From the NCBI RefSeq assembly GCF_014639535.1, contig NZ_BMGA01000010.1:1-64000 (forward strand): a DNA stretch of 64,000 nt. Direction: 5' to 3'. Source of the DNA: Flavobacterium palustre (GTDB taxonomy: Bacteria > Bacteroidota > Bacteroidia > Flavobacteriales > Flavobacteriaceae). The notes beneath the pieces were generated by a model. The model had not been told where the DNA came from. It made no database searches and was given only the letters and a program-made list of their open reading frames with translations. A program made the translations under genes and the position numbers. Positions 25,648 to 58,429 of the stretch are shown here, piece after piece; the first letter of the stretch is position 1; the number at the start of each line of letters is the position of its first letter.

Positions 25648-25732
25648 GGAGAAATGGCAGAGCGGTCGAATGCGGCAGTCTTGAAAACTGTTGACTGTAA
25701 CAGGTCCGGGGGTTCGAATCCCTCTTTCTCCG
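25648..25732 (+). tRNA. tRNA-Ser (anticodon UGA)
   Basis: 85-nt class II tRNA. Acceptor GGAGAAA pairs with TTTCTCC, discriminator G; anticodon loop CTTGAAA gives anticodon TGA (serine, UCA codons); long variable arm; T-arm GGGGGTTCGAATCCCTC. CCA is not encoded. Its last 20 bases plus one form the attachment core of the integrated element, so the gene is kept intact by the left junction and a 3' fragment lies at 53656-53676. Confidence 0.97.
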
Positions 25733-25733
25733 C
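25713..25733 (+). other. attL core of island 1 (tRNA-Ser 3' end)
   Basis: 21 bp beginning TTCGAATCCCTCTTTCTCCG are repeated exactly at 53656-53676, 27.9 kb downstream. The T-arm and acceptor 3' half of a tRNA is a classic target for tyrosine recombinases, and an integrase gene lies 285 bp away. Confidence 0.92.
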
Positions 25734-25759
25734 AGAATAACTTTCAAAAGTTATCAAAA

Positions 25760-25793
25760 CCTCGAAAATCTTATGATTTTCGGGGTTTTTTCT
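25760..25793 (+). terminator. tRNA-Ser terminator inside island 1 left end
   Basis: CCTCGAAAATC / GATTTTCGGGG stem with TTAT loop and T-tract. The equivalent stem after the second attachment copy has different bases but the same fold. Confidence 0.8.
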
Positions 25794-25840
25794 TTTAAGA
25801 AACTCTCAAATAATACATTCTTTATCAAATTTCAAGGAGT

Positions 25841-25885
25841 AAAATCGAGACCCTAAAAAATCAAAATATTGGGTCTCGCAAAATG
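25841..25885. promoter_or_regulatory. Candidate recombinase arm sites at island 1 left end
   Basis: CGAGACCC and GGGTCTCG form a perfect inverted pair around an AT-rich spacer. The left half, AAAATCGAGACCCTAAAA, recurs at the other end of the island (53593-53610) with one base changed. A second palindromic motif, GGGTTACAACCC, lies at 25921-25932. Confidence 0.55.
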
Positions 25886-26017
25886 ATTAGCTAGAACGGA
25901 GAATCATCTGATTTTACTGGGGGTTACAACCCAGTTCTTAGCACTATCATTTTTTGAACATCTTGTAAATAGACAAACCTTATTATAACTTATTTGTATA
26001 ATTTAAAGGTTACCAAA

Positions 26018-27265
26018 ATGAAAGTAAAAACCACCTTGCATTTTTATGCAAAATCAACAAAGAGTAATTCAGCAGGGTTATTTCCAATTTATGTTAGGCT
26101 GACAGTAGACGGAAAAAGATTAGAGTATAGTACAAAAAAATTCATTGATCCAACCAAATGGTCGTCAAGTACCAGCAGAATGAAGGGCAATTCAGAAGAA
26201 GCACGTTCAATAAATAGCATACTTGATTTTGTAAAAAATAAAATCAATGAAATACAATATGAACTATTAAAAGATGGTATTTCCTTTACTATTGAAGAAT
26301 TTAAAAAAAGATTACTTGGTACTTCAGAAAGAACCAGGACACTTATCCCCATCTTCCAGGATCATAATAATAAAATAAAAGCACTTATCGGAAAAGAATA
26401 TGCTCCGGGAACTTTAGAACGCTATGAAACCTCTTTAAAGCACACCAAAGATTTTCTAATGTGGAAATACAATGTTTCGGATATTGAGATAGTAAAAATT
26501 GACCATGCCTTTATCACCGATTATGAATTCTATTTGAGAACTGTTCGTAATTGCTCCAATAATACAGCAGTAAAATACATTAAGAACTTCAATAAGATTA
26601 TCAAGATTTGTTTAGCCAATCACTGGATTGAGAAAAATCCTTTTGCTAATTATAAATCGAAAGTAAAAGAAGTAGAAAGAGTCTATCTTACCGAAAACGA
26701 AATCCAGGACATAATCAATAAAGATTTTGGAACCGACAGACTTTCATTAGTTCGAGATATCTTTATTTTTAGCTGTTTTACGGGACTTGCTTACATCGAC
26801 GTAAAGAATCTTACCAAATCACATATTAGCTTTGGTATCGACGGCGAAAAGTGGATATTTACCCACAGACAAAAAACAGAATCAGCTTCTAAAATCCCGA
26901 TACTTCCGGTAACCCAAATGATTATTGAAAAATACGAAAATCATCCGCAGGCAATTAATGAGGACCGCTTACTCCCTATTTTTAGCAACCAAAAAATGAA
27001 CGCCTATTTAAAAGAAATTGCGACAGTTTGTAATATCAAAAAAGAACTAACATTCCACATCGCCAGACATACTTTTGCTACTACAATCACACTAACAAAC
27101 GGAGTCCCTATTGAATCAGTTAGTAAAATGCTTGGTCATAAAAATTTACGAACTACCCAACACTACGCAAAAGTCCTGGATAAAAAAGTTGGAGAAGACA
27201 TGAAAATTCTAAAAGATATATTTTCAAATAAAGCTATTGGTATTAATCTAAAATCAGTTAACTAA
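26018..27265 (+). CDS. Tyrosine recombinase (IntDOT-like integrase) of island 1
   Basis: 415 residues from the ATG at 26018, which matches the start of the related integrase at 53927; an in-frame ATG at 25994 adds eight residues. Arm-binding domain at ~1-100, SAM-like core-binding domain at ~105-205 (YAPGTLERYETSLKHTKDFL), catalytic domain after 215. Catalytic residues visible are HIARHTFATT (His, Arg), LGHKNLRTTQHYAK (His and nucleophile Tyr), and a beta-hairpin Lys in RQKTESASK. The first catalytic arginine is not present in SCFTGLAYIDV, as in CTnDOT IntDOT. It should integrate the island into the adjacent tRNA-Ser. About 65-70% similar by eye to the second integrase. Confidence 0.95.
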   Translation: MKVKTTLHFYAKSTKSNSAGLFPIYVRLTVDGKRLEYSTKKFIDPTKWSSSTSRMKGNSEEARSINSILDFVKNKINEIQYELLKDGISFTIEEFKKRLLGTSERTRTLIPIFQDHNNKIKALIGKEYAPGTLERYETSLKHTKDFLMWKYNVSDIEIVKIDHAFITDYEFYLRTVRNCSNNTAVKYIKNFNKIIKICLANHWIEKNPFANYKSKVKEVERVYLTENEIQDIINKDFGTDRLSLVRDIFIFSCFTGLAYIDVKNLTKSHISFGIDGEKWIFTHRQKTESASKIPILPVTQMIIEKYENHPQAINEDRLLPIFSNQKMNAYLKEIATVCNIKKELTFHIARHTFATTITLTNGVPIESVSKMLGHKNLRTTQHYAKVLDKKVGEDMKILKDIFSNKAIGINLKSVN

Positions 27266-27441: not shown

Positions 27442-28935
27442 ATGAAAATATCATATTTACTTGAATGTTATGATGTAATCTTTCGTCAAACGATTTCCCC
27501 AATTACTAATTCAAACAAAACCATTTTTGAAGCACTTAGTAATAACGAAAATAATTCATATCGAATTTTTGAAATAGAAATCAATAAAAACAAAAACACT
27601 GATAATTTAAAAATTTGCCAAACATTTCACTCCTTACATCCTAAAGTTCAAGAATTAGAATTGAAATCAATATTTCATTTCAATGAATTTGTAGAATTTA
27701 TTCCAGTTTTAAAATCAATAATCGAATTTACCGGTGAAAATATTTTTATAGCAAAGCATCCTGAATGCACAAATAAATTTTATGTATATGAAAAATGTTC
27801 GATTAATGAAATACCAGTCATACAACGCAACTTATTTTATACACATCAAATTTTAAAAAATGAAAACCTCAACATTAAACGAGCTATAAAAGAACAAGTA
27901 TTTAATTATAAATCAAATTTAAAAATTGAACACTTTATTCATAAAATCCAGTTGTCTTTAGAATCTCAATTACATTTATTGATCAAACATATAGAACCTA
28001 AATCCAAAAAAGAACTATATGAATACTCTAATAATTATGATAAAATAGATTGTTTAAAATGTCAATTTTCCCATTTGGAAAAGCTGCTCATATTTCTTGA
28101 AAGAGAATACATAGATTATTTAAATGATAAATCGATGGTACCCTACCGAACGGTTTTAATTGATGAAGTTGAAATCGCTTCTAAAATAGAATTCGTCCGG
28201 AATTCTTTACTATCAATGGTTATCGATAAAGAGTTATTACAAATAATTTTCGAACCATTATTAAATCTGACTACTTTACATACTCACGAAAAAATTAGTT
28301 ATTACCAATACAATTACTCTAAAAAATATCTAATTGATATTGCGAAATTCATATATCAAAATCCAAACGGAATAACTCAATTAGAATGGTGCAATTGGCT
28401 GATAGAAATGCATGTCAATATGTTTAATTTTTTCGATTATATAACTTCTATTTTAAAAAATGAGTTTAATAATTGTGATACCGAAATGGAAAAGTTAAAC
28501 CTAATGTTCGATTATTTAAAAATCTACAACCAATCTAAAAACAAGCATTGCGTTTCATATAAAGAAAATCTCCCTTCTATTAAATTTCAAATTTATAACT
28601 GGCTCGAAGAAGAAATTGAATTCCTATCAAGAAAAACGGAACTCACCAAGAAAATAGAACATCGTGAGGAAAGCAACCATAATCATAATAAAATACACTT
28701 AGATCTTTCAGTTGCACAATTAGCCTATGTTCTTAATTTACTAATTAAAGCTGGATTAATAAAAAACAATAACCTCAAAGAAGTGCTTCAAGTAGCCACA
28801 GAAATTTTTAAAACTGACATGACAGAATCAATTTCTTTTGATAGTTTACGTTCTAAATTTTATAATGTAGAAACAAGTACTTCTGATGCAGTAAAATTAA
28901 AAATTGAAAACCTCTTAAATTTTACGAAGCTCTAA
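27442..28935 (+). CDS. Element-encoded protein of unknown function, RteC-like position and tail
   Basis: 497 residues, soluble, highly Lys/Asn/Ile-rich, with no recognised enzymatic motif. Most of it looks helical. The last ~75 residues (LDLSVAQLAYVLNLLIKAGL; FDSLRSKFYNVETSTSDAVK) match a C-terminal domain found in Bacteroidota mobile-element proteins. It sits directly after the integrase, the place taken by rteC in the neighbouring island, so a role in control of excision or transfer is plausible. Its 3' end overlaps the convergent small gene by 21 bp. Function inferred from position only. Confidence 0.6.
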   Translation: MKISYLLECYDVIFRQTISPITNSNKTIFEALSNNENNSYRIFEIEINKNKNTDNLKICQTFHSLHPKVQELELKSIFHFNEFVEFIPVLKSIIEFTGENIFIAKHPECTNKFYVYEKCSINEIPVIQRNLFYTHQILKNENLNIKRAIKEQVFNYKSNLKIEHFIHKIQLSLESQLHLLIKHIEPKSKKELYEYSNNYDKIDCLKCQFSHLEKLLIFLEREYIDYLNDKSMVPYRTVLIDEVEIASKIEFVRNSLLSMVIDKELLQIIFEPLLNLTTLHTHEKISYYQYNYSKKYLIDIAKFIYQNPNGITQLEWCNWLIEMHVNMFNFFDYITSILKNEFNNCDTEMEKLNLMFDYLKIYNQSKNKHCVSYKENLPSIKFQIYNWLEEEIEFLSRKTELTKKIEHREESNHNHNKIHLDLSVAQLAYVLNLLIKAGLIKNNNLKEVLQVATEIFKTDMTESISFDSLRSKFYNVETSTSDAVKLKIENLLNFTKL

Positions 28936-29418: not shown

Positions 29419-29485
29419 TTTGTAACTGTTTTGGTGTATTCAAATGAACTCTATTTGCCATAATAAATTAATAAAATGTATAACT

Positions 29486-29773
29486 ATGGCTATCGAAGTA
29501 CTTACAAAAGAAGACCTGAATCAATTCAAAACAGAATTACTATCTGAATTCGCGCAGCTTTTAAATGCAAATCCCCAAAACAAACAGAAATGGCTCAAAT
29601 CAAAAGAAGTGCTGGAATTGTTAGCCATATCACCGGGAACTTTACAAAACCTCAGAATAAATGGTACACTGACCTTTACCAAAATTGGAGGAACTATTTA
29701 TTATGATCAGGATGATATCAATAAAATTCTGGAGCGAAATAAAAAAGCGGCCAAATTAACCCTCTTCAAATAA
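29486..29773 (+). CDS. Excisionase-like helix-turn-helix protein
   Basis: 95 residues from the ATG at 29486 (MAIEVLTKEDLNQFKTEL). The N-terminal half is a charged helix; the C-terminal half is the MerR/excisionase-type HTH: KWLKSKEVLELLAISPGTLQ and TLTFTKIGGTIYYDQDDINK. Such proteins in Bacteroidota elements act as recombination directionality factors or repressors. It opens a plus-strand operon with the wHTH protein and the ATPase. A homologous gene (56322-56624) sits at the same place in the neighbouring island, and both have a palindrome shortly upstream. Confidence 0.85.
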   Translation: MAIEVLTKEDLNQFKTELLSEFAQLLNANPQNKQKWLKSKEVLELLAISPGTLQNLRINGTLTFTKIGGTIYYDQDDINKILERNKKAAKLTLFK

Positions 29774-29797
29774 TGCATAACATTTAGTTGAATTACT

Positions 29798-30694
29798 ATG
29801 AACTATATCAAACACCTTTCGGGATTCTTTCAAAAAATCAGTTACGATACCGACCTAAATCCTACACACGTGAGTTTGTATATGGCATTATTTCAAACTT
29901 GGAATGTCAACCGTTTTCAAAATCCTATAAGCATTACCAGAAATGAAATGATGCGAATCAGTAAAATTTATTCCAAAGCAACATATCATAAATGCATTAA
30001 TGAACTACACGAAAAAGAGTACATAAAATACGAACCTTCCCATAATCCTTTCAAAGGCAGTTTAATCTACGTAAACAGCTTGGAAATAAGCCTGGAGCAA
30101 CCAAGCAAGAAAGAACAAAGAAGGTCAAAAAAAGAACAACCTATTGAACAAGTAGTGAACAAGTACAAGACAAGTACCTTACCAACTCCTAGACAAGCGC
30201 TGGTATCTTATATAAACAATACAAACAGTACAAACGCTTTAAATCTTGAAAACGAGAGCGCACAAGAAAAAAAATCAGATGGTGAAGATTTTGAAATTGA
30301 AAATTTGATACCAAGAGAAAAGAAGAAAAAAAAGTGGCGCGAAAAAAAAGAAAATTCAAAAAATGTCATCCCGAGCATGTCATCCCGAGCGTGTCATCCC
30401 GAGCGGAGTCGAGGGGCGAGGGACGAGGGACAAATCCCACCAAAATTCGATGATGTAAAACAATATTTCGTTTCACAAAATACCGAAGAAATCGAAGCCG
30501 AACGATTTTTTAATCATTTCCAGAGTAACGGTTGGTTAGTCGGCGGAAAATCCAAAATGTACAATTGGCAAGCTTCAGCCAATAATTGGATTTTAAACTT
30601 GCAAACCTTCAAGCCTCTCAAAATGGTAATATCAAATCCGATTCCGGGGAATTTAAAAACGTCAAACCAAAAAAAATACGATGAACCCTTATAG
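29798..30694 (+). CDS. Replication-protein-like winged-helix protein carrying a repeat insertion
   Basis: 298 residues. The N-terminal ~100 residues form a winged-helix domain (MNYIKHLSGFFQKISYDTDL; KATYHKCINELHEKEYIKYE) and the C-terminal ~70 residues a DnaT/DnaD-like segment (FDDVKQYFVSQNTEEIEAER; ASANNWILNL), the layout of phage and plasmid replication initiators or helicase loaders. The homologue in island 2 is 306 residues with the same ends. The variable linker here contains VIPSMSSRACHPERSRGARD, which is translated from three copies of the dispersed 14-bp repeat TGTCATCCCGAGCR, so an intergenic-type repeat has entered the gene in frame. The last codons overlap the ATPase gene by 14 bp. 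Confidence 0.75.
   Translation: MNYIKHLSGFFQKISYDTDLNPTHVSLYMALFQTWNVNRFQNPISITRNEMMRISKIYSKATYHKCINELHEKEYIKYEPSHNPFKGSLIYVNSLEISLEQPSKKEQRRSKKEQPIEQVVNKYKTSTLPTPRQALVSYINNTNSTNALNLENESAQEKKSDGEDFEIENLIPREKKKKKWREKKENSKNVIPSMSSRACHPERSRGARDEGQIPPKFDDVKQYFVSQNTEEIEAERFFNHFQSNGWLVGGKSKMYNWQASANNWILNLQTFKPLKMVISNPIPGNLKTSNQKKYDEPL
30364..30430. repeat. Bacteroidota TGTCATCCCGAGC repeats within a gene
   Basis: Three tandem copies of TGTCATCCCGAGC(A/G), the last extended to GGAGTCGAGGGG. The same family occurs between genes at 51709-51771, 52208-52230 and 57616-57690. Confidence 0.85.
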
Positions 30695-31337
30695 CGAAAT
30701 TCAAAAAACATTTGTAGTGAAAAATGGCATCAAAATGTACGACTTCGACAAATGCTTAGCGGCATTACAAATCATTGGACATTACCACTTTGGTAACCAA
30801 TTCAAAATTTACGAGGAAGACATCCCGGTTATCAGGAAACTAATTACCTATGCCATTCGAGATATAAATTCAACAACAAAATTAAATCTAAATCCCAACA
30901 AAGGAATCATATTGTCGGGGCCTGTTGGTTGTGGTAAAACTTCGTTAATGTATTTGCTGAATTATTTCTGTTCACATAACTACAGTTACAAAATAAAACC
31001 CTGTAGAGACATCGCCTTTGAATTTGCCGTTAAAGGATACGATGCCTTATTTCCTTTCACCAAAAAAGAATACAAGCAAATCAAACTAAACACCTATTGT
31101 TTTGATGACCTGGGAACCGAAAAACAAATCAAACATTTCGGCAACGAATGCAATGTAATGGCCGAAATTATCCTCAGCCGTTACGATTCATTCATCCACG
31201 AAAAAACACTAACACATGTGACCACTAACCTATCCGCTTCGGAACTCGAAGCGTGCTATGGTGACCGGGTACGGTCTCGGATGAGGCAGATGTTTAACCT
31301 TATAGCTTTTGACAGGGATACTAAAGACAAAAGATAA
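30681..31337 (+). CDS. DnaC-like AAA+ ATPase
   Basis: 218 residues. Walker A GPVGCGKTSL near residue 78, Walker B TYCFDDLGTE near 137, sensor region THVTTNLSASELEACYGDRV and a final arginine cluster RSRMRQMFNLIAFDRD. These are the features of DnaC/IstB-type helicase loaders and related plasmid replication ATPases. It overlaps the preceding wHTH gene by 14 bp and probably acts with it in loading a replicative helicase on the excised element. The island 2 homologue (57785-58429) is nearly the same length, with the Walker region strongly conserved. Confidence 0.85.
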   Translation: MNPYSEIQKTFVVKNGIKMYDFDKCLAALQIIGHYHFGNQFKIYEEDIPVIRKLITYAIRDINSTTKLNLNPNKGIILSGPVGCGKTSLMYLLNYFCSHNYSYKIKPCRDIAFEFAVKGYDALFPFTKKEYKQIKLNTYCFDDLGTEKQIKHFGNECNVMAEIILSRYDSFIHEKTLTHVTTNLSASELEACYGDRVRSRMRQMFNLIAFDRDTKDKR

Positions 31338-31547: not shown

Positions 31548-34500
31548 ATGAGCTTCAATAAAATCCTAGAAAAATACCGTAAAATTTCATTTTCAGAAAA
31601 AGATAAAGGAGAACGTTTTGAACGTTTAATAAAAGCATATTTATTAACAGACCCTAAATATGCCAATCTATTTAAAAAAGTTTGGATGTGGAATGAATTT
31701 CCTTCAAAAGCTGATTTAGGTGGTAATGATACAGGTATTGATTTAGTAGCTTTGACAAATGACGGTGACTATTGGGCTATACAATGTAAATGTTATGCAG
31801 AAACTACAGTAATTGATAAAAAAGCAGTTGATACTTTCCTATCAACATCAAGTAGGTCTTTTAAAAATGAAGACTTACAAACCACTCATTTTTCACAATG
31901 TTTGTGGATTTCCACTTCAAATAATTGGTCTTCAAATGCCACAGAGTCTTTAAAAAACCAAAGACCTCCTGTTTCTCGTATAAATATTTATGATTTAGCA
32001 AATGCTCCTGTAGATTGGGAAAAATTAGAAAACAATATTACAGGCGAACTAGCCAGAACAAAAAAATATCCATTAAAGGAACATCAAAAAAATGCTTTAG
32101 AAAGTACCTACATTCATTTTAAAGAAAATGATAGAGGAAAATTAATAATGGCTTGTGGAACTGGAAAAACGTTTACCTCGTTGCGCATTGCTGAAAATGA
32201 AACTAAAGACAAAGGCTTAGTACTGTTTTTAGTACCTTCCATTGCATTGCTAGGACAAACCTTAAATGAATGGAGTGCTCAGGCAATGGTAAAAATAAAT
32301 CCAATTTGTATTTGTTCAGATCCTGAAATCACTAAAAAGAAAAAACAAGTCGATGATATAGATACAACTTCGGTTATCGATTTAGCATTACCAGCATCTA
32401 CAGATGTTCCAAATATTATTCATCAATTCAGAAGATTAAAAACTCATGCAAATGATGGAATGACTGTTGTGTTTTCAACATACCAGTCTATTGATGTAAT
32501 CTCAAAAGCTCAAAAAGAATTATCAAAAGTATATCCCGAATACAGTGAATTTGATTTAATTATTTGTGATGAAGCGCACAGAACAACTGGTGCTAAATTA
32601 TCTGGTCATGACGAATCAGCTTTCACAAAAGTTCATGATAATGATTTTTTAAAGTCAAAGAAAAGACTTTACATGACAGCAACACCTCGTTTATATGACA
32701 ATGAAACCAAAAGTAAAGCTGCTCAAGCAGATGCTATGCTTTGGTCAATGGACGATGTAAATGTTTATGGTGAAGAAATCTATCGTATTGGTTTCGGAGA
32801 AGCCGTGCAGAAAAAATTATTGACAGATTACAAAGTACTTATTCTCACATTAAGTGAAAATGATGTGCCTCCAGTAATTCAATCTATGATTGCAAATGCA
32901 GAAAGTGAAATAAAAGTAGATGATATGCCTAAATTAATTGGTTGTATCAATGCACTTTCAAAGCAAGTCCTTGGCGATGAGGGATTGGTAAAGTCATCAG
33001 ACCCTAATCCAATGCGTAGAGCGGTTGCCTTCTGTTCAACTATCGTGACTTCGCAAACTATTACAGATACATTTAATGATGTCTCTGATACTTATATTGA
33101 TTCATTACCAAAGGAATTCCGAGACAAAACAGTTTCCGTAGCGTCAAAACACATAGACGGTTCTATGTCGGCTACACAACGAAACGAATTATTAGGTTGG
33201 TTAAAAGACGAACCAAAAGATAATGAATGTCGTGTTTTAACAAACGTCAGATGCTTATCAGAGGGGGTTGATGTACCATCTCTCGATTCAGTTATGTTCT
33301 TATCAGCAAGAAACAGTCAAGTAGATGTTGTACAATCTGTCGGTCGTGTAATGCGTTTATCCGAAGGCAAACAATATGGTTATATTATAATTCCGGTTGT
33401 TGTACCTGCTAACGTTAGTGCAGAAGATGCCTTAAGTGACAACGAGAGATTCAAAGTAGTTTGGTCTGTTTTAAATGCATTACGTGCTCACGATGACCGA
33501 TTTAATGCTACTGTCAATAAAATTGAATTAAATAAAAAGAAACCTTCCAATATTTTAGTGGGAGGTTCAGGTATTGGATTTGATGAAAATGGAGACCCTT
33601 TTGTTAAAGATGGCTATGATGGTTCTACAGGTGAAATAATTGACGACCAACTACAAATTCATTTTGAAGAATTACAAAGCGCAGTATTTGCGCGTATGGT
33701 ATTAAAAGTTGGAGACCGTAGATATTGGGAACAATGGGCGCAATCTGTAGGAGAAATTGCAACACGTCAAAAAGAACGCATTTTAGAATTGATAAAAAAT
33801 TCACCTAAACACGAGAAAGAATTTGAAAATTTCTTAAAAGGTTTACGCAAAAATATCAATCCTTCTGTAGGTAAAGAAGAAGCGATTGATATGTTATCAC
33901 AGCACATCATTACAAAACCTGTATTTGATGCATTATTTGAAGGCTATTCTTTTGTTGAAAACAATCCAATGAGTCAATCCATGCAAAAGATGTTAGACTT
34001 ATTAGAAGAAGAGACAATAGAAGAAGATGTAAAGACATTAGAAAGCTTTTACGAATCTGTAAAAATGCGTGCTTCGGGTATTGATAATGCAGAAGGAAAG
34101 CAAAAGATTATTTTAGAATTATACGATAAGTTCTTTAAAACTGCTTTCCCTAAAATGGTGGAGCAGTTGGGAATTGTGTATACACCTACCGAAGTAGTAG
34201 ATTTTATTATCCATTCCGTTGCCGATGTATTGCAAAAAGAATTTAACCGTAATATCTCAGACGAAAACGTGCATATCTTAGACCCTTTTACAGGAACAGG
34301 TACTTTCATTACACGTTTAATGCAATCAGGTGTTATTCGTCCAGAAGATTTAGAACGCAAATACAAAAAAGAAATTCATGCTAATGAAATTGTTTTATTA
34401 GCCTATTACATTGCTTCAATAAATATAGAAAACGTATTTCATGACCTAACACCAGACCCTAATGACGGCATTGGTAAAGAAGTATATCATCCATTTGAAG

Positions 34501-36428: not shown

Positions 36429-37634
36429 ATGACCAAGACCCAACCAAAAATAGCAATTAAGTTTTATCAAGGAGTAAAAGATTTAACGTCTAATTTTAAA
36501 GACGAAGAACAACTAATTGAAGGTATTAAGGAAAAGATGAATGATTTCTTCAATATGAAGAACATTTGCTTTTTATTTGGTTCTGGTACAAGTAGTGGTT
36601 CTATTCCTACAATGAAAGAACTAGTTACAAAAGCTAAAAATGAAATTACGTCTCTATCTAAAACCCATGTAGCATTTTATGAATCAATTACATTAAAAGA
36701 CCCTGATAATTTAGAAGAATTATTAGGGATCTTATATTCTTCTAAAATATATTTTTCTAGTGATGCTTCTAAAGGTGGTGAATTACAAATTTGTACAGAA
36801 GTTATTGAAGTTATAGAAAGGGTAATTTACACTGAGATTAATATTGATTTTAATGATTCAAAACATGAAGCCCAATTAAATAATTATAAGAATTTTTACC
36901 ATAAAGTAGGTTTTCGAAACAAGGATTTATCGCGTATAAGTATTTTTACCACTAATAATGATATGTTTAATGAATATGCGTTAGATAGTTTAAATATTTC
37001 ATATATCAACGGATTTGGTGGTGGTATAAATCGGTTTTTTAATCCTGCGTATTTTAACTATACTTTTTCAAAAAGAATGGATACCAGTATTGATAAATAT
37101 GAACCTATTGAAAATTTGGTTTATTTATATAAAATTCACGGTTCAGTCAACTGGTTGGAGGACATTTCAAATGCAAATACTTTTTTCAATATACGTGAAG
37201 AAACTTCTTTGAAAAATTTAGTATATGATTCTTCAAACAACGTCTTAATTTATCCTACTCCTACAAAACAAAATAAAAGTTTAGGGAGTCCTTATACTGA
37301 ACTTTTTAGAGAGTTTCAAAAAAAGTTATTGGAGCCAAATACTGTAATATTTGTAATAGGTTACAGCTTTAGTGATGAACACGTTAATAATATTATTTAC
37401 CAATCTTTAGCAACTAATTCTACTATCAATGTTGTTATTTTTAATGATTTATCTTCAAAAGAAATTTCTAAAATAAACGACAATAGGATATTTAAAATTT
37501 ATGGATATGATAGTACTGGTGCAAAAATTCATTATTTCAACAACATAATTGATAAGTTTATACCAGATATAAATATGCATAATAATGAAATTGAGCTACT
37601 TCGAAAATATATAACTGAAAATAAAAAACCTTAA
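36429..37634 (+). CDS. SIR2-domain defence protein
   Basis: 401 residues. SIR2/Rossmann motifs are intact: nucleotide-binding CFLFGSGTSSGS near residue 50, IFTTNNDMF near 174, the catalytic histidine in YKIHGSVNW near 237, and VIGYSFSDEHVNNII near 311. SIR2 proteins of this bacterial type hydrolyse NAD+ as an abortive response to phage; partners include HerA, Ago and DSR-like modules. The start codon follows the restriction gene stop directly, and the next gene encodes the N-terminal part of a HerA-like protein, so this is probably a SIR2-HerA (Nezha-type) pair whose partner is shortened. Expression with the ISP enzyme implies layered defence. Confidence 0.85.
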   Translation: MTKTQPKIAIKFYQGVKDLTSNFKDEEQLIEGIKEKMNDFFNMKNICFLFGSGTSSGSIPTMKELVTKAKNEITSLSKTHVAFYESITLKDPDNLEELLGILYSSKIYFSSDASKGGELQICTEVIEVIERVIYTEINIDFNDSKHEAQLNNYKNFYHKVGFRNKDLSRISIFTTNNDMFNEYALDSLNISYINGFGGGINRFFNPAYFNYTFSKRMDTSIDKYEPIENLVYLYKIHGSVNWLEDISNANTFFNIREETSLKNLVYDSSNNVLIYPTPTKQNKSLGSPYTELFREFQKKLLEPNTVIFVIGYSFSDEHVNNIIYQSLATNSTINVVIFNDLSSKEISKINDNRIFKIYGYDSTGAKIHYFNNIIDKFIPDINMHNNEIELLRKYITENKKP

Positions 37635-37635
37635 T

Positions 37636-38151: not shown

Positions 38152-38166
38152 ACTAAAAACCAATAC

Positions 38167-38230
38167 AATAAACCTGTAATAGTATAATAAACCAACTAGG
38201 TTTATTAAATAATTATTTTTATTATATTTG
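38167..38230 (+). promoter_or_regulatory. hipBA promoter with operator-like repeats
   Basis: AATAAACC occurs at 38167-38174 and 38186-38193 and its inverse GGTTTATT at 38199-38206, upstream of a -7 box TATATTTG (38223-38230). Inverted operators over the promoter are normal for autoregulation by HipB; the assignment is inferred. Confidence 0.55.
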
Positions 38231-38268
38231 TATGACATATCAGTCACTAAAACCAAAATAAGCACTTT

Positions 38269-42224: not shown

Positions 42225-42237
42225 AATTCAAGATGTT

Positions 42238-42744: not shown

Positions 42745-42798
42745 TAATTTATTTTATGACGACAAAACTAATGATGTCAGGATGGTATAAATAGTATC

Positions 42799-43668: not shown

Positions 43669-43713
43669 CTGTAATTCTTTTTTGGGTACAATTAAAAAGT
43701 TGACAGTTTTAAA

Positions 43714-44370: not shown

Positions 44371-44381
44371 TGATTTTATTT

Positions 44382-47739: not shown

Positions 47740-48165
47740 ATGCCAAATTTCATTATCAAAACACACCAAAAAGACACGCTTTACAGCAAACCGCATTTAT
47801 TCATATTAAACAAGGGAATGAACAGCGGTAAACCCCAAAAAGAACCATTTACAAACAGTTTTGTAATCATTTTTCAAAATGAGGAAGATTGTGAGAATAG
47901 TTATTTTGTGGCGTACAGCTTATGGAAAACCAAGTTTTGGCATCCATTTTTAGTAGGTTCGGTTATCCCGTTTTTACGCCTTCAAAATTTTTCGAAAGAA
48001 TTCAATCTAAAAGCCAGTTTGATGATGCAGGAACACGAAGAACATCTCAAACAAGTTGCAGCTTTAAAACTCCTGGAACAAAAAGAAAAACAATTCCACC
48101 AGAATATCAATCTCATTAACGATATGCGTAGGGTGATTTTGTACCGCTACTGCAAGAAAAACTGA
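47740..48165 (+). CDS. Conserved Bacteroidota mobile-element protein, DUF6943-like
   Basis: 141 residues (MPNFIIKTHQKDTLYSKPHL). The central text SFVIIFQNEEDCENSYFVAY, SLWKTKFWHPFLVGSVIPFL is what I recall of the DUF6943 family, frequent in Bacteroidota conjugative elements; the name is from memory. The C-terminal half is a charged helix (LEQKEKQFHQNINLINDMRR). Soluble, with no catalytic motif. With the following small gene it may be a remnant of a conjugative-element accessory region inside the island. Confidence 0.65.
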   Translation: MPNFIIKTHQKDTLYSKPHLFILNKGMNSGKPQKEPFTNSFVIIFQNEEDCENSYFVAYSLWKTKFWHPFLVGSVIPFLRLQNFSKEFNLKASLMMQEHEEHLKQVAALKLLEQKEKQFHQNINLINDMRRVILYRYCKKN

Positions 48166-51708: not shown

Positions 51709-51771
51709 TGTCCTCCTGAGCGTGTCCTCCCGAGTGCGTCAGGCTGAGCGTGTCAGGCTGAGCGCAGTCGA
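51709..51771. repeat. Dispersed Bacteroidota repeats
   Basis: Degenerate copies of GTCCTCCCGAGCG and GTCAGGCTGAGCGCAGTCGAAG in tandem. They run into the 3' end of the DUF5675 gene. A further copy, TGTCAGACTGAGCTTGTCGA, is at 52208-52230. Confidence 0.75.
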
Positions 51772-52190
51772 AGCCCGAAGCTAGAAGCCCCAAGGGACGA
51801 TTCAACAATTAATTCAACACTTTCTTCATTATCCAAAGCCTTATATACAATGCCTTTCAGCTTATTAAAAGCTATTCGGGACATCAAACCAAGTCCTGGA
51901 CCAGAAAGTTTAGTGACCGGAGCAATACAGCCTTGTAACTCCTGTTGGGCATTATTAGCTGGATGAAATAGAATAAACTTTCTATTGGGTACATCCACCA
52001 ATTCCAAATGCCATTTGTATTTAGCACTGTATCGCTTTCTGATAAAATATTTCCCCTCCGGAACACAGGAAACCTTCGTTTCGTTCATCTTCCACGGCAA
52101 TTCAATAGTATTACAGATCAATTTACCTTCACATTCGAGTTTACCATTGGTTCCTTCAGGGAAATAAGTTCTGTTTAAAAACAAAACCAT
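51753..52190 (-). CDS. DUF5675-like protein
   Basis: 145 residues. MVLFLNRTYFPEGTNGKLEC, then CNTIELPWKMNETKVSCVPE, GKYFIRKRYSAKYKWHLELV and FHPANNAQQELQGCIAPVTK match my memory of DUF5675, a family near phage/tailocin lysis or murein-related genes; several of its conserved positions (GxY, H, GCI.P) recall a catalytic hydrolase or transpeptidase-like fold. The last ~14 residues (SLGASSFGLRLRSA) are translated from the dispersed repeat that overlaps the 3' end, so the original stop was lost. Second gene of the four-gene operon. Confidence 0.65.
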   Translation of the reverse strand: MVLFLNRTYFPEGTNGKLECEGKLICNTIELPWKMNETKVSCVPEGKYFIRKRYSAKYKWHLELVDVPNRKFILFHPANNAQQELQGCIAPVTKLSGPGLGLMSRIAFNKLKGIVYKALDNEESVELIVESSLGASSFGLRLRSA

Positions 52191-52233: not shown

Positions 52234-52992
52234 TTACACTCCTCCGTTAACTACGATAAGTGCTAACGGGTTGTAAGCTCCGTTTTTCAGCGAATACATA
52301 CTTCCATTCACCTCTTGGTAGAACTCCAATCCTAAAGCCAAAAACAAGGGTTTAGTACTGTTTGGAGTAACCATATTTACTTGGTTAATCACAGCGGTAG
52401 CCGTAGCATCCCAAGCCATAATGGCTGTTTCTGCATGTTGTTCAACAAAACTTTCATTCTCAAAATCAACTTCAACACCGGCTGAAATGATTTTGAAATG
52501 AGTAGTTCCCCCGGGAGCAGCAATCATATTCGATGGAATAAAAGAAGGAATATCCACGGTAATTTCACCGGTAACCCTGTCAATACTTCCGGTATAAGGA
52601 GCAAATAAACTAGTACCTAGCTTTCCACGAATATTAAATTCAAATCCTGCCAACAATTCTGCCTCACCGTCAATTACGTTTCGTAATCCACGTTCGTTAG
52701 TAGAATCAGCCTGAATCACCTTAACCATAGATTGCGTCAAACGGCTCACCATTCTGCTATCCGCAGAGTTCAAAAGCAAGACTCTAAGAGCTGTTCTTAA
52801 AACCTTTCCTGCTTTTCCAGCTCTACCAAATTCAGATCCGTTTTCACGTGTTCTTTGAAACGCAGGATCAGTTGCGATTCTGTTAGCGTCAATTCCGCCT
52901 TTTTCTCTCGCTAAATGACCATCCTGCGTTTTGTAAAAAGTAATATCCCCGATAGTACCTTTTAATTTAATTATGCCTTTTTGCCTTGCCAT
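52234..52992 (-). CDS. Conserved flavobacterial protein beginning MARQKGIIKLKG
   Basis: 252 residues. N-terminus MARQKGIIKLKGTIGDITFY is basic and strand-rich (also FYKTQDGHLAREKG); a helical part (LRTALRVLLLNSADSRMVSR) and beta-rich C-terminal domain follow (GEITVDIPSFIPSNMIAAPG; LFLALGLEFYQEVNGSMY). I have seen this start in Flavobacteriia next to DUF5675 and holin-like genes. Soluble, no signal peptide. First gene of the operon, and probably the main component of whatever the four genes build; structural, phage-tail-like or secreted roles are possible but unproven. Confidence 0.65.
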   Translation of the reverse strand: MARQKGIIKLKGTIGDITFYKTQDGHLAREKGGIDANRIATDPAFQRTRENGSEFGRAGKAGKVLRTALRVLLLNSADSRMVSRLTQSMVKVIQADSTNERGLRNVIDGEAELLAGFEFNIRGKLGTSLFAPYTGSIDRVTGEITVDIPSFIPSNMIAAPGGTTHFKIISAGVEVDFENESFVEQHAETAIMAWDATATAVINQVNMVTPNSTKPLFLALGLEFYQEVNGSMYSLKNGAYNPLALIVVNGGV

Positions 52993-53289: not shown

Positions 53290-53493
53290 ATGAAAACAGA
53301 ACCAAAGAGAGTGTGTATCTACGCAAAGGATATTCAACGCATTACTGGAAAGTCATATCGTCAAAGCATCAGAATACTTCAAAAAATCAGAACCGAACTT
53401 AAAAAGCAGGAGAATGAGTTAGTAAGTATTGAAGAATTCTGTTTATTTACCAGTTTAAAATACGAACTAGTAGAGCCTTTAATTATTGGATAA
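53290..53493 (+). CDS. Small DNA-binding-like protein
   Basis: 67 residues (MKTEPKRVCIYAKDIQRITG; RQSIRILQKIRTELKKQENE; FCLFTSLKYELVEPLIIG). The pattern AKDIQRITGKSYRQSIRILQ looks like a helix-turn-helix, and the protein matches a short family common in Bacteroidota genomes and elements. It stands alone 163 bp before the right attachment site of island 1. Its role is unknown; control of the element is possible. Confidence 0.7.
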   Translation: MKTEPKRVCIYAKDIQRITGKSYRQSIRILQKIRTELKKQENELVSIEEFCLFTSLKYELVEPLIIG

Positions 53494-53592: not shown

Positions 53593-53676
53593 AAAATCGA
53601 GACCCTAGAATTTTATTTTGCTAAACCCCTATTAAATATAGGTTGAAAATGGATTTTCGAATCCCTCTTTCTCCGC
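53593..53676. other. attR of island 1 / attL of island 2, with arm-type motif
   Basis: 53656-53676 repeats the tRNA-Ser 3' end exactly (TTCGAATCCCTCTTTCTCCG plus C). AAAATCGAGACCCTAGAA at 53593-53610 repeats the motif at 25841 with one change, supporting this as the end of island 1. The next integrase begins 250 bp further on, so the junction serves both islands. Confidence 0.88.
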
Positions 53677-53700
53677 TGACTGATTAACAAAAGTCAACAA

Positions 53701-53737
53701 AACCCTTTAAATCTTATGGTTTAAAGGGTTTTTCTTT
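53701..53737 (+). terminator. Terminator at island 2 left end
   Basis: AACCCTTTAAATC / GGTTTAAAGGGTT stem around TTAT, then a T-tract; equivalent in place and fold to the one at 25760-25793. Confidence 0.8.
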
Positions 53738-53926
53738 TTATGCAATGTGCAGAATATTCATTTATTCTCAATACTAAAGGAGCACAATTCGGGGTACATA
53801 AATGAGGTTCATTTCAAGTACCCCTATCTGAAGTAAATGAGTATCCGAGCACAGGTATAGAAGCTGAACATCTTGATTGGCTTCGGTAACAATTTTAACT
53901 TAATAATAATTTAAAAGGTTACCACC

Positions 53927-55174
53927 ATGAACAATCCAATTACAATTCTTTTTTACCTAAAAAGAGCAAAAGCAAATTCAAATGGACTAGTTCCCATATT
54001 TCAAAGAATTACCATTAACGGAAAACGATTAGACAACAGTACCGGAAAATTCATAGATCCGACAAACTGGAACGCTGATTTATCCAGATTAAAAGGTAAT
54101 TCGGCAGAAGCTAGAACAATAAATAGTCATCTTGAAAATTTAAAAGGAAAGATTTATGAAGCTGAGAAAAAATTAATCTCCCGGGATGAAGAATTAAACA
54201 TCGAAAATATCCGAAATATACTTTACAATAGTAAGAAACGGGAACATTTACTGATTCCTATTTTCAAAGAACACAATCGTAAAATAAAAGAATTAATCGG
54301 TTTGGAATACGCACCAGGAACACTGGAACGATATGAAACATCCCTAAAACACACTCAAAATTTCCTAAAATGGAAATATAGTATTTCCGATATCAGTATT
54401 GAAAAAATTGATCACGCCTTTATTACCGAATATGAATTCTATTTGCGCAGCGAGCGAAAATGCGCCAATAACACAGCTGTAAAATACATCAAGAACTTTC
54501 ATAAAATCATCAATCAATGTCTAGCCAATGGATGGCTAGATAAAGATCCTTTTGTAAACTATAAAGCAAAAGTCAAAGAAGTAATTAGGGAGTTCCTAAC
54601 TGAAAAAGAAATTGAAACAATAATGAATAAAGAGTTTGTTTCTGAGCGTCTCGAATTAGTCCGTGACATCTTTATTTTCAGCTGCTTTACCGGTTTGGCA
54701 TATATCGATGTAAAACAACTTACATTGAATAATATTTCGTTAGGAATAGATGGAGATAAGTGGATATATAAAAATCGACAAAAAACAGACACAACATCTA
54801 AAATACCATTACTCCCTACTGCACAACTTATTCTGGATAAATATGAAAACCATCCCGTCTGTAAGAACGAAAAACGACTACTTCCTATCCTGTCCAATCA
54901 AAAAATGAATGCTTATTTAAAAGAAATAGCGGATGTATGTGGAATCAAAAAGGATCTTACCTTTCATATTGCCCGCCATACTTTTGCAACAACGGTAACA
55001 CTTTCTAATGGTGTCCCTATCGAAACTGTTAGCAAGATGCTTGGTCATACTAATCTAAAAACTACTCAACATTATGCCAAGATATTAGACAAAAAAATTA
55101 GTGAGGACATGCAATTTCTTAAAGATAAATTTAACGTAAAAAGAGATAAAATACAACAAAATAAAAATATTTAG
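53927..55174 (+). CDS. Tyrosine recombinase (IntDOT-like integrase) of island 2
   Basis: 415 residues, the same length as the island 1 enzyme and collinear with it. Arm-binding N-terminus (MNNPITILFYLKRAKANSNG), core-binding domain (YAPGTLERYETSLKHTQNFL) and catalytic HIARHTFATTVTLSNGVP with LGHTNLKTTQHYAKILDKK. The first catalytic Arg position again reads SCFTGLAYIDV. The two proteins have near-identical core regions but diverge at the N-terminal arm-binding domain, as expected if they use the same attachment core with different arm sites. Its start follows GGTTACCACC, like GGTTACCAAA before the first integrase. Confidence 0.95.
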   Translation: MNNPITILFYLKRAKANSNGLVPIFQRITINGKRLDNSTGKFIDPTNWNADLSRLKGNSAEARTINSHLENLKGKIYEAEKKLISRDEELNIENIRNILYNSKKREHLLIPIFKEHNRKIKELIGLEYAPGTLERYETSLKHTQNFLKWKYSISDISIEKIDHAFITEYEFYLRSERKCANNTAVKYIKNFHKIINQCLANGWLDKDPFVNYKAKVKEVIREFLTEKEIETIMNKEFVSERLELVRDIFIFSCFTGLAYIDVKQLTLNNISLGIDGDKWIYKNRQKTDTTSKIPLLPTAQLILDKYENHPVCKNEKRLLPILSNQKMNAYLKEIADVCGIKKDLTFHIARHTFATTVTLSNGVPIETVSKMLGHTNLKTTQHYAKILDKKISEDMQFLKDKFNVKRDKIQQNKNI

Positions 55175-55246: not shown

Positions 55247-56071
55247 ATGCTACCAGACTATAAAACCTACTTTGATCAAATATATTTAGGCTTAAGAGCT
55301 TTAAAACAACAGGAAAACAATGGAAATTGCAAAAAGCTAATTCAATATTTAGAACACCATAAATTGGTGGTCAATAACTGGTTACGCAATTATAACTTTT
55401 CAACGGACGAAGAAGAAATAAAATTTTTCAAGAATTATAAGCCTCAATTAACCTCTAAAATCATCTATTACAAAATCCGCCAGGATATCTACCTCAACTT
55501 ACCTAAATCACAGAAAGCAATCTACAAATACTACGACAAACTGCTGGATAAAAACAATCATGTTCCAACTAAATTAAAACCGTTTTATCGTTATTTAGGA
55601 AAGGAATCGACTCACCGGGATACCGAATATTTCTTAAGACGAAATAATATCTCCGACATCAATGATCAATATCATTTTATTTTTTCAGATGAGCGAACCT
55701 GTACAAAAATGGATATTTCAATAGCCATATTAATAGCCCGCGAAAAAATCATTAGTCATCTTGAAACCAGGTTGAATGAAATTGAACAACAAACCAAAAA
55801 TTCTAAATGGATTTCCAATTTGAAATGGACGGGAACCAAAATTGAACTTATCGAATTAATTTATTCACTCCAATTTGTAAAGGTTATAAATGCGGGTAAT
55901 ACCGATATCAAAGAAATTGCTGCCGGTATGGAACATTTATTTAACATCGAGTTAAAACCCCATTTGTACGGAACTTACCAAGATATTAAGAAACGAAAAA
56001 CAGGACAAACTAAGTTCCTGGACAAAATGTCAATTACCTTACAAACTACCATTTTCGACGAAGAAATCTAA
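55247..56071 (+). CDS. rteC: RteC-like regulator
   Basis: 274 residues. N-terminal helical half (LLPDY... KKLIQYLEHHKLVVNNWLRN; DEEEIKFFKNYKPQLTSKII) and C-terminal LKWTGTKIELIELIYSLQFV, then AGNTDIKEIAAGMEHLFNIE and RKKTGQTKFLDKMSI-like tail identify RteC. In CTnDOT, RteC activates excision gene transcription after tetracycline induction. No tet gene or RteAB two-component pair is visible here, so its inducer must differ. It sits just after the integrase, the position filled by an unrelated-looking 497-residue gene in island 1. Confidence 0.88.
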   Translation: MLPDYKTYFDQIYLGLRALKQQENNGNCKKLIQYLEHHKLVVNNWLRNYNFSTDEEEIKFFKNYKPQLTSKIIYYKIRQDIYLNLPKSQKAIYKYYDKLLDKNNHVPTKLKPFYRYLGKESTHRDTEYFLRRNNISDINDQYHFIFSDERTCTKMDISIAILIAREKIISHLETRLNEIEQQTKNSKWISNLKWTGTKIELIELIYSLQFVKVINAGNTDIKEIAAGMEHLFNIELKPHLYGTYQDIKKRKTGQTKFLDKMSITLQTTIFDEEI

Positions 56072-56256: not shown

Positions 56257-56321
56257 ACCTATGGAAATAAATTATTCCAAAAGCCCTTGTTTTGTCTTGT
56301 TCAACTTTAAACAAATTCAAA

Positions 56322-56624
56322 ATGAGCTTACATCCTAAAAAACTGTTCCCGGAAGTCGAAAATATCGAACTATTGAACCACCAGGTCGTTACCAAAAGAG
56401 ACCTTCTAAATGCTTCTAACATTATTCTCTCTGAATTAAAAGAAATCCTATCCATAAAGGAAAAGCCATCCGAATGGTTGCGTTCAACCGAAGTTCGTAA
56501 AATATTAAAAATATCCAGCGGAACGCTCCAAACACTTCGTATCAGTGGTGCTTTAAATTACACCAAAATTGGAGGCACCTTGTACTACAAATACGAAGAC
56601 CTCGAGAAATTACTCAATCAATAA
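56322..56624 (+). CDS. Excisionase-like helix-turn-helix protein
   Basis: 100 residues from the ATG at 56322 (MSLHPKKLFPEVENIELLNH). C-terminal HTH: WLRSTEVRKILKISSGTLQT and ALNYTKIGGTLYYKYEDLEK, the same family as the island 1 gene at 29486. Likely a recombination directionality factor or repressor. It heads the operon with the wHTH protein and the ATPase. The upstream palindrome differs in sequence from the island 1 one, suggesting separate regulatory specificities. Confidence 0.85.
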   Translation: MSLHPKKLFPEVENIELLNHQVVTKRDLLNASNIILSELKEILSIKEKPSEWLRSTEVRKILKISSGTLQTLRISGALNYTKIGGTLYYKYEDLEKLLNQ

Positions 56625-56676
56625 AATAAGACGAAAAAGTCTTAACACTTAATTCTGTCATCTTAATACTTGAGTT

Positions 56677-57597
56677 ATGAACTACATTAAACATCTCACT
56701 GGCTTTTTCATTAAATCCAATCAGGATCTAAGCATCACTCCAACTCACATCAGTTTGTATCTGGCATTATTTCAAAGATGGAATCTAAACCGCTTTAAAA
56801 ATCCAATTCTAATCTCCAGAGAAGAAATGATGCTTACTGCTAAAATAAAATCCAAAGCCACTTACCATAAATGTATTAAGGAGCTGCATGATAAAAAATA
56901 TATTATTTACAAACCATCCTATAATCCTTATACCGGCAGCGAAGTAATCTTACCCGATTTATCTTTAAATGCAATAGACAGCCATGGTGTTAACGATTCA
57001 ATTACAGAGATTACCATACCAGATATTGAACCAAACCTGTTCAATTCAGAACAAACAAGTACAAAAGATGAACCTATGAAGTTCAATAAATGTGTAACTA
57101 GTTCAAATAATGAGTTTAGCGAACCATTAAATGAACCAACACCCCCTAAAAAAGACACAAAAAAAGACTTAACCGTACTAAATTTTGACAGCACCATACC
57201 AAATTTTGACCGAACCGTACTAAAAAATGGTATCTATAATAAAACTAATATAAACACTAATAAAACTATAAGTGCACCCACCCAAAAAAAGGAAAAAAAT
57301 AAAACCAGTTCAATAAATGAAAAAGTACCTCCAAACTTAGATGCTGTTAAAAATTATTTCAAAGAAAAAAATATCCGCGAACTGGAAGCCGAAAAGTTTT
57401 TCAACTATTATAATTCCAATGGCTGGCTCATAGGTGGTAAAACGCCAATGAAAGATTGGAAAGCAGCAGTACGAAATTGGATCTTAAACCTGGAAAAGTT
57501 CAATAACAATCAAAACCTTCAAACAAATCCAAATCCAAACTTAAAACCTAATAATCTCAACGTCTCTAACAACAAAGACTATGCCGAACCGCTATAA
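56677..57597 (+). CDS. Replication-protein-like winged-helix protein
   Basis: 306 residues. N-terminal wHTH (MNYIKHLTGFFIKSNQDLSI; KATYHKCIKELHDKKYIIYK), a long Thr/Asn/Lys-rich linker (~110-215, e.g. LTVLNFDSTIPNFDRTVLKN), and a C-terminal DnaT-like segment (AVKNYFKEKNIRELEAEKFF; WKAAVRNWILNLEKF). Collinear with the island 1 protein, whose linker instead carries an inserted repeat. Proposed role: origin binding or helicase loading for the excised element together with the ATPase encoded next. The linker contains LNFD/PNFD short repeats. Confidence 0.75.
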   Translation: MNYIKHLTGFFIKSNQDLSITPTHISLYLALFQRWNLNRFKNPILISREEMMLTAKIKSKATYHKCIKELHDKKYIIYKPSYNPYTGSEVILPDLSLNAIDSHGVNDSITEITIPDIEPNLFNSEQTSTKDEPMKFNKCVTSSNNEFSEPLNEPTPPKKDTKKDLTVLNFDSTIPNFDRTVLKNGIYNKTNINTNKTISAPTQKKEKNKTSSINEKVPPNLDAVKNYFKEKNIRELEAEKFFNYYNSNGWLIGGKTPMKDWKAAVRNWILNLEKFNNNQNLQTNPNPNLKPNNLNVSNNKDYAEPL

Positions 57598-57615
57598 TCT
57601 GAACTCATAGCCAAA

Positions 57616-57781
57616 ACATGTCATCTCGAGCGAAGTCGAGAGACCACAACCCACAACTTGTCACCCTGAGCTTATCGAAGGGCATAACCCATCCCGATAG
57701 CTATCGGGACTCATAACCCACAACCCACAACCCACAACCCACAACTCATAACTCATAACTCATAACTCATAACTCATAACT
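57616..57781. repeat. Dispersed repeats and a 7-bp tandem array before the ATPase gene
   Basis: TGTCATCTCGAGCGAAGTCG and TTGTCACCCTGAGCTTATCG-type copies (57616-57690), a perfect palindrome TCCCGATAGCTATCGGGA near 57692-57709, then ten 7-bp units CATAACC / CACAACC / CATAACT at 57712-57781 ending 3 bp before the ATG. In island 1 the same two genes overlap, so this 187-bp spacer was inserted or expanded. Confidence 0.85.
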
Positions 57782-57784
57782 CAC

Positions 57785-58429
57785 ATGACCTACTACGACA
57801 CCTACCATATCGCCAACAATACCAAAATTTTTGAACCACGAAAATGTTTTCAATTCCTGGAACAACAAGGAAAAGAAATGTTCAATTCCAATTTCAAAAT
57901 CCATAGTTACGACTATCCAACTATTTACAAGCTACTGATTTATGCTATTAGAGACCAAAAGGTTGCTCTAGAGTTAGGAATTGACCTCAACAAAGGAATT
58001 ATGCTTTCGGGACCAATTGGATGCGGAAAAACCTCATTAATGCACCTGATAAAACCTTTTATCCATCAAAAAAATGAATACAAAATCAAAACCACCAGAC
58101 AAATTTCCTTCGAATTTGCTAAATCCGGTTACGAAATCCTTAGTCAGTACACCTATAAAAACCCGAACCAAAACCGTTTGACCGGCTATTGTTTTGACGA
58201 CCTTGGTGCCGAACAACAAATCAAACATTTCGGTAATGACTGTAACGTTATGGCCGAAATCCTAATCACACGCTATGAAGAATTCATCGCCAATGGTTCG
58301 ATTACTCACATAACAACCAATCTTTCTGCTTCTGAAATTGAAAAAGCTTATGGAAATCGGGTTCGTTCAAGATTGAGACAAATGTTTAATTTGATAGCTT
58401 TTGACAAAGAAGCAAAAGATAAACGATAA
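57785..58429 (+). CDS. DnaC-like AAA+ ATPase
   Basis: 214 residues. Walker A SGPIGCGKTSLMH near residue 78, Walker B GYCFDDLGAEQQ near 137, ITHITTNLSASEIEKAYGNR and RSRLRQMFNLIAFDKEAKDK at the end. Strongly similar to the island 1 ATPase, most of all across QIKHFGN(D/E)CNVMAEI. Probable helicase loader partner of the upstream wHTH protein. The start directly follows the 7-bp repeat array, so translation initiation may be sensitive to its length. Confidence 0.87.
   Translation: MTYYDTYHIANNTKIFEPRKCFQFLEQQGKEMFNSNFKIHSYDYPTIYKLLIYAIRDQKVALELGIDLNKGIMLSGPIGCGKTSLMHLIKPFIHQKNEYKIKTTRQISFEFAKSGYEILSQYTYKNPNQNRLTGYCFDDLGAEQQIKHFGNDCNVMAEILITRYEEFIANGSITHITTNLSASEIEKAYGNRVRSRLRQMFNLIAFDKEAKDKR

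Follow-up and report, generated by a model that had tools for sequence, protein, structure and literature searches.

Composite islands of the ICESt1 type in streptococci are said to grow by site-specific accretion and deletion. Here we consider a 64,000-nucleotide stretch of Flavobacterium palustre DNA (the window; positions 1 to 64,000 of contig NZ_BMGA01000010.1, assembly GCF_014639535.1), in which two related integrative elements, elements 1 and 2, follow one another at a tRNA-Ser gene. The contig, C10, has 117,651 bases and the genome 3,970,070 bases in 36 contigs. Tandem accretion has already been described, both at RNA genes and for islands (PMC3146451; PMC2297512). The ssrA islands of Dehalococcoides are alike in forming tandem islands downstream of one RNA gene with 20-bp direct repeats, in their conserved integration module at one end and adaptive cargo, and in that no conjugation system of their own was found; however, they rely on serine recombinases at tmRNA, whereas tyrosine integrases, arm sites, a tRNA-Ser and exchangeable arm-binding domains are found here (PMC3146451). 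Salmonella genomic island 1 (SGI1), whose integrase has been placed in the IntCTnDOT subgroup (PMC8138268), also forms tandem arrays at one attB, but from identical copies of one element rather than from different elements with different arm sites (PMC2297512). CTnDOT and NBU1 of Bacteroides have the same integrase domain layout (PMC8138268). Element 2 shares RteC with them; unlike them, the elements here are stacked at a tRNA gene, carry a right-end module of unfamiliar type and have no PF03432 relaxase in their own genome. Mycobacteriophages of clusters J and K likewise combine one common core with differing N-terminal arm-binding domains or arm sites, but these are phages, the cases are few and there are no stacks; the cluster J authors report no systematic site difference that tracks the domain difference (PMC3706429; PMC3203893).

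Many genomes hold several islands at one tRNA gene, and the question is how islands with one core avoid cross-excision. We read the locus, with a probability of about 0.8, as a stack of site-specific integrative elements at one tRNA-Ser, each with its own integrase and probably moved chiefly by its own arm sites. Interchangeable end-recognition parts of the integrases may be the way in which stacked islands stay separable. Full-text literature searches, with most subscription journals outside them, listed no paper whose title or opening lines of the abstract deal with these elements or with arm-class exchange in stacked islands, and the new part looks to be the arm-domain swapping inside tandem-accretion stacks.

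Repeated cores and stacked integrases at tRNA-Ser

The integration target is a tRNA-Ser(TGA) gene on the forward strand (25648..25733, ARAGORN), the strand of all features below unless stated. Its final 21 bases, TTCGAATCCCTCTTTCTCCGC, recur exactly, as an earlier note on this DNA had claimed: the copy at 25713-25733 forms the left end of element 1 (attL1) and that at 53656-53676 lies between elements 1 and 2. No further copy was present in the window at up to three mismatches, nor in 100 shuffles, and at up to two mismatches the own genome holds one more copy only, inside a second intact tRNA-Ser on contig C11. The third core that the note had proposed to look for beyond 64 kb was found as a 17-bp copy at C10:85990-86006, with a weaker 12-bp copy at 116106, both oriented as in the window. 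When the 63,951 bases beyond 53700 were simulated 300 times at first order, chance pieces reached at most 13 bases (at least 12 bases in 6/300), so the 17-bp core is not due to chance. Core to core, element 1 measures 27,943 bp and element 2 32,330 bp. The second element had been taken to end at 58429, and this is rejected; it ends at the 85990-86006 core, 3' of which lies a third integrase of 406 amino acids (aa; C10:86603-87823).

Integrase 1 (26018..27265; 415 codons from the ATG at 26018, the program-made list of open reading frames (ORFs) starting at a TTG at 25994) and integrase 2 (53927..55174) both have the 415 residues and IntDOT-like character first ascribed to them, with PF17293, PF13102 and PF00589 (arm-binding, SAM-like core-binding and catalytic domains) all over cut-off. 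They are 67% identical over 400 residues and read FTGLAYIDV at the position of the first catalytic arginine, where the usual motif is TGLR. This arginine is weakly conserved in the IntCTnDOT subgroup and lost in CTnDOT, as in both integrases here (PMC8138268). Terminator-like hairpins found by alignment follow both window cores (25754..25789 and 53697..53732). Described before as covarying, the two do differ on both stem sides (36-column alignment, by eye), whereas in a four-hairpin consensus that adds cores 85990 and 116106 0/12 pairs changed on both sides; the hairpins therefore stand, and the covariation for the two window copies only. The right core of a relative, G161, reads GCGGAG-CCTCTTT-CTCCGC, which suggests CCTCTTT as the 7-bp exchange region. 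Right ends reading CCTCTTTCTCCGC occur in G005, G010, G015, G150 and G161, on elements whose integrase is nearest to the third integrase.

Three integrases thus stand in line at the strain's own tRNA-Ser, and genus relatives carry stacks of two to four elements, which strongly supports tandem accretion at one tRNA-Ser. G013 has three elements in a row and G150 four; in G005, G010, G017 and G173 an integrase accompanies two or three of the cores. The gene upstream of one tRNA-Ser(TGA) is the same as in the window in 14/14 genus relatives (proteins 78-90% identical) and in four more, and where an integrase of this family is present it mostly starts about 250-300 bp past the core. Element numbers vary among relatives and the repeat is the 3' end of the tRNA, in contrast to the counter-case named in the earlier note, in which both segments would always occur together and the repeat be unrelated to the tRNA.

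A 13-bp core is present in 138/150 genus genomes, and the core outside a tRNA, HAATCCCTCTTTCTCCGC, in 77/399 (0 for the reversed-pattern control). Among the 150 sites listed, from 55 genomes, neighbouring sites 3-80 kb apart were co-oriented in 47 cases vs 1, and 25/55 genomes held a pair in one orientation within this range of distance, some copies being whole tRNAs. No stack prevalence is drawn from these counts, one search being restricted to genomes with at least two known copies and the other covering the 150 sites listed. The spacing of cores varies widely, from about 10 to 84 kb. An integrase search of a genome contig collection gave three loci, two of them in Mucilaginibacter adjoining tRNA-Ser genes and one a weak match in a Sedimentisphaerales metagenome-assembled genome.

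Arm-type sites and exchange of the arm-binding domain

Though the core is shared, the arm-type sites are element-specific. The sequence AAAATCGAGACCCTA lies 107 bp past the left core of element 1 (25841..25855) and 63 bp ahead of its right core (53593..53607), with an inverted GGGTCTCG on the left at 25871-25878. Element 2 has GGGGTACATA (53791..53800; right copy at C10:85927) and an inverted GTACCCC (53818-53824) in places matching those of element 1. The arm-type motifs are GAGACCC in element 1 vs GGGGTAC in element 2, and the integrases were labelled as arm classes GAGACCC and GGGG(T/C)AC, respectively. Relatives have the same layout with other motifs, including GGTGTCACT, GGTTACCC, GGTGCAC, AGTGACC, GGTACCC and others. 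Class labels were derived from DNA and are independent of protein sequence; they were assigned by eye for the identity and breakpoint comparisons and the older rows of the tree set, and by short patterns for the junctions and the 45-element end count. Arm class is an address readable from sequence, from which one can predict the part of a stack expected to move and the integrase expected to move it.

The two ends of an element resemble each other far beyond chance. In a set of 42 elements, all with a right core and with an integrase past the left one, own ends had a summed similarity of 676, vs 426 +/- 20 when permuted, and 0/20,000 permutations reached the observed value. By class, 34 of 45 elements had matched ends, four were mismatched and seven were unread (34/38 readable). 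Two of the four mismatched elements lie side by side in G150, one with left C and right B and the other with left E and right C, as if ends had been exchanged within the stack; the outer C ends would then bound a unit spanning both elements.

The integrases themselves are modular, as judged from 42 of the 45 labelled proteins (3 that were not full length were left out). Identity in the arm-binding domain is 54-98% within a class (median 76%, 94 pairs) and 18-60% between classes (median 31%, 767 pairs), with an abrupt shift near residue 100-108. For example, comparing the integrases of G010 (class C) and G120 (class B) gives 96% identity for the core-binding/catalytic part vs 52% for the arm-binding domain, and their DNA, in 60-nt windows, is mostly 42-77% identical before the break and mostly 85-97% after it. 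In trees of 40 integrases of six classes, arm class changes five times on the arm-binding tree, which is the minimum, and 18 times on the core-binding/catalytic tree (shuffled mean 24.5); the trees were made by a quick method and 16/36 inner branches of the catalytic tree are weak. Because arm class follows the arm-binding tree and not the core-binding/catalytic tree, these sequence comparisons show that arm-binding domains have been exchanged repeatedly against the core-binding/catalytic part. Such natural swaps offer a ready series for studying arm-site recognition.

Elements of one class also tend not to be neighbours. The junction sample comprised 105 distinct non-tRNA cores; an integrase was present at 42 of them, and both classes could be read at 31. 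With int3-type ends labelled apart, 0/31 junctions joined the same class (expected 3.65, P 0.016); this split was chosen after the coarse-label result had been seen, and the int3 rule also took the right ends of G155, G164 and G099 (core not ending in TC), which slightly lowered the expected number. Under coarse labels the count was 1/31 (expected 4.46, P 0.048), the single case being in G150, where ends of int3 type and int2 type adjoin. Junctions less than 70% alike gave 0/26 (P 0.039) and int1/int2-type junctions 0/16 (P 0.026). One class does occur twice in a stack when non-adjacent, as in G013 (B-A-B) and G150 (left ends E-C-E). Tentatively, and with more doubt than confidence, arm class could be regarded as a compatibility group for elements sharing one attB, with the catalytic part kept and the arm-binding domain and arm DNA exchanged, so that arm class would sort the stacks, domain swaps would renew them and exchanged ends would redefine the mobile unit. 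The exchange would be explained because a same-class newcomer beside a resident would be cross-excised or deleted.

Proposed excision and circularization, and competing explanations

A mechanism may be proposed from this anatomy. Each element probably entered at the shared core of the tRNA 3' end through a tyrosine integrase of its own, and it carries its own tRNA 3' end and terminator, so that the tRNA stays whole and reusable. With lambda and IntDOT (PMC8138268) as models, the catalytic part would work on the shared core while the N-terminal domain engages the arms, and each integrase should therefore excise the stretch bounded by its own arms. Elements sharing one core would remain separately excisable, and swapped ends would redefine the mobile unit. 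The circle probably replicates via its Rep-like and DnaC-like genes and reaches other cells. The earlier note had proposed excision singly or together through the shared core. The shared core is borne out; anatomy favours single excision because the arm-type sites are element-specific, and joint excision of elements 1 and 2 would combine one cognate and one foreign arm set.

A possible circular form is known from elsewhere. Among 72,556 plasmid records, a relative of the 252-aa right-end protein (described below) occurs in one only, plasmid p1 of Marivirga sp. BKB1-2, a circle of 25,320 bp. Its order is DUF5675, relatives of the 252-aa and 67-aa right-end proteins, GTGTCC twice as direct repeats, a stretch resembling a core, a terminator hairpin and more GTGTCC repeats, and then the integrase, a 497-aa protein relative, HTH_17, Rep-like protein and ATPase. 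This is the gene order expected from a self-closed element, and an excised element or an established plasmid would both fit. The integrase frame of p1 is broken in the record and no tRNA core was identified on the plasmid. As to transfer, the PF03432 relaxase, the sole relaxase family searched (oriT was not searched), is absent from the own genome (G000), G010, G013, G150 and G161, and present in G005, G017 and G173. No relaxase or mating-pair gene was found among 48 Pfam-scanned proteins (not every ORF was scanned).

Several points weigh against separately mobile stacked elements as we read them. Many cores lack a following integrase of this family, and tRNA copies are among them. The right flanks of stacks and of unoccupied tRNAs share no gene across the genomes compared, except in two locus pairs, and no clean empty site is shown because right flanks differ among relatives. 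The third element also deviates: its ends are unlike (GTGCACC on the left at 86183, GTTACCC on the right at 116038), its integrase lies 597 bp from the core vs the usual spacing, replication and right-end genes were looked for in it and none were found, and its 12-bp core at 116106 is weaker and supported mainly from relatives. The 4/38 readable elements with unlike ends also count here. The first test of neighbours, with an integrase at both cores, gave 0/16 of the same class at P 0.118, and the different-class trend is nominal only, the relatives sharing ancestry. Excision, circle and transfer are predictions for the window's own strain, and the PF03432 match of G017 lies on the stack's contig, about 55 kb past the last core found.

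Other explanations must be set against this. If arm class were irrelevant, as the earlier note implied, any integrase of a stack could recombine any pair of cores and elements would leave singly or together. The core is indeed shared, and exact between the first two copies, and stacks of identical SGI1 copies have been proposed to lose single or several copies (PMC2297512). Yet the match between the two ends of an element far exceeds that under permutation, and arm class goes with the N-terminal domain of the integrase, both of which would be unexpected for idle arms; IntDOT, moreover, is reported to bind arm sites (PMC8138268). We judge this explanation unlikely. Somewhat less probable still is that no swap took place and that arm-binding domains diverged fast under selection while the catalytic part was held by the tRNA core. 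N-terminal domains of integrases may evolve faster, and the weak branches of the catalytic tree would accommodate such a history. However, the break in identity is abrupt: across the ten closest different-class pairs, identity is 94-96% for the core-binding/catalytic part but 45-56% for the arm-binding domain; at a catalytic identity of 0.85-0.95, arm-binding identity is 0.78 within a class (39 pairs) vs 0.48 between classes (96 pairs); and starred branches of the catalytic tree unite different classes (B with C; B with A; B, D and E).

Equally improbable is that the elements are phage satellites or prophage remnants packaged by a helper. Phages and satellites, too, can have integrase, excisionase-like, Rep-like and DnaC-like genes; PHROG matches exist for the HTH_17 and ATPase proteins, and integrase relatives below 60% identity are present in 144 phage records. 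However, structural or packaging genes numbered 0 among 48 Pfam-scanned and 10 PHROG-scanned proteins (a subset of the ORFs), the 252-aa protein had no match in 50,697 phage records and none was confirmed in viral contigs (six peptide patterns), and the wide variation in core spacing noted above also counts against it. Helper-interference genes were not found among the proteins scanned with Pfam or PHROGs.

Modules, cargo and other occupants of the hotspot

Elements 1 and 2 have a common left gene order of integrase, regulator slot, HTH_17, Rep-like protein and DnaC-like ATPase. The claim of the same order in both is upheld except at the regulator, which is a 497-aa protein in element 1 (27442..28935; no Pfam match, relatives in a tRNA-Val element and in G014) vs RteC in element 2 (55247..56071; PF09357, 9.5e-54). 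The 497-aa protein as a divergent RteC is not supported (hhalign relation probability 1.5%). In element 1 there follow an excisionase-like HTH_17 protein (29444..29773; PF12728, PHROG excisionase matches), a Rep-like protein (29798..30694), a name suggested despite matches only to PHROGs of unknown function, and a DnaC-like ATPase (30681..31337; PHROG DnaC-like helicase loader, 1.2e-18). Their counterparts in element 2 are an excisionase-like HTH_17 protein (56292..56624; PF12728), a related Rep-like protein (56677..57597; 71% repeat of 264 nt) and a related ATPase (57785..58429; from translations and relatives). Between the last two genes, at 57644-57763, lie short CCACAACCC repeats.

The right-end module, common to both elements and just within the right core, consists in element 1 of a DUF6943 protein (47740..48165; PF22105), a DUF5675 protein (51753..52190, reverse strand; PF18925), the 252-aa protein (52234..52992, reverse strand; no Pfam match, 95% identical copy in element 2) and a 67-aa ORF adjoining the core (53290..53493). 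The 67-aa ORF is modelled as two helices (mean predicted local distance difference test, pLDDT, 81.7); no PDB match reached E 0.001, and 34 lay within E 10. The model of the 252-aa protein is unusable (mean pLDDT 37.6), and DUF5675 had no PDB match below E 0.07.

The stack unites defence genes, chromate genes and two glycan-degradation loci at one genomic site. Element 1 carries a type ISP/IIG restriction enzyme, SIR2 protein, HerA-like fragment, HipB-like helix-turn-helix protein and HipA (31548..39908), followed on the reverse strand by superoxide dismutase, chromate transporter, ChrB-AraC regulator and IS1595-type transposase (40333..45330). At 36429-38151 the SIR2 protein is followed by a 171-aa protein matching only positions 8-163 of 654 of HerA and adjoining HipBA, which looks like a SIR2-HerA-like defence pair with HerA apparently truncated. 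A 58-nt direct repeat (83% identical; 40001-40058 and 46376-46433) brackets the superoxide dismutase/chromate/IS1595 block, as if these 6.4 kb had moved as one unit. Two further proteins, of 218 aa (43714-44370) and 684 aa (48436-50490), have no Pfam match, the latter also none in PHROGs, NCBIfam or PADLOC.

The cargo of element 2 starts at 58979..64000 on the reverse strand, the element itself continuing past the window to C10:86006; it has GH2, GH43, GH106 and GH28 proteins as well as a rhamnogalacturonate-lyase protein and a hybrid two-component regulator. From these enzyme families we infer a pectin-type locus with rhamnogalacturonan as the probable substrate. After the third integrase come GH88, two heparinase II/III-like proteins, a polysaccharide lyase and SusD, together with an N-sulphoglucosamine-type sulfatase and a glucosamine-6-phosphate isomerase protein, enzyme families that point to a heparan-type glycan.

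Elsewhere in the own genome, a tRNA-Val element on contig C2 combines the left and right-end modules with an integrase that shares 62% identity with integrase 1, and a 14-base piece of the tRNA-Val 3' end recurs 44 kb away. The C11 core copy was considered as the end of element 2 and ruled out, being part of the second intact tRNA-Ser(TGA), which shares the upstream stretch of the first. At this locus (L007:1823-9929) relatives of the 252-aa and 67-aa proteins adjoin the tRNA 3' end in an orientation opposite to the stack, and a HlyD-like gene farther on is apparently cut short. In G030 and G047 (L039, L040) the right-end protein adjoins the tRNA and a distant integrase (26-28% identical) lies near the far core; there the tRNA hotspot seems to be occupied by another integrase family, in reverse order. 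Whole tRNA-Ser(TGA) copies 0.2 to 34 kb apart are present at L028-L029, L032, L034, L036, L042 and L044, and the entire tRNA, beyond its 3' end, is multiplied at the hotspot in the genomes concerned (G008, G006, G036, G004 and G015).

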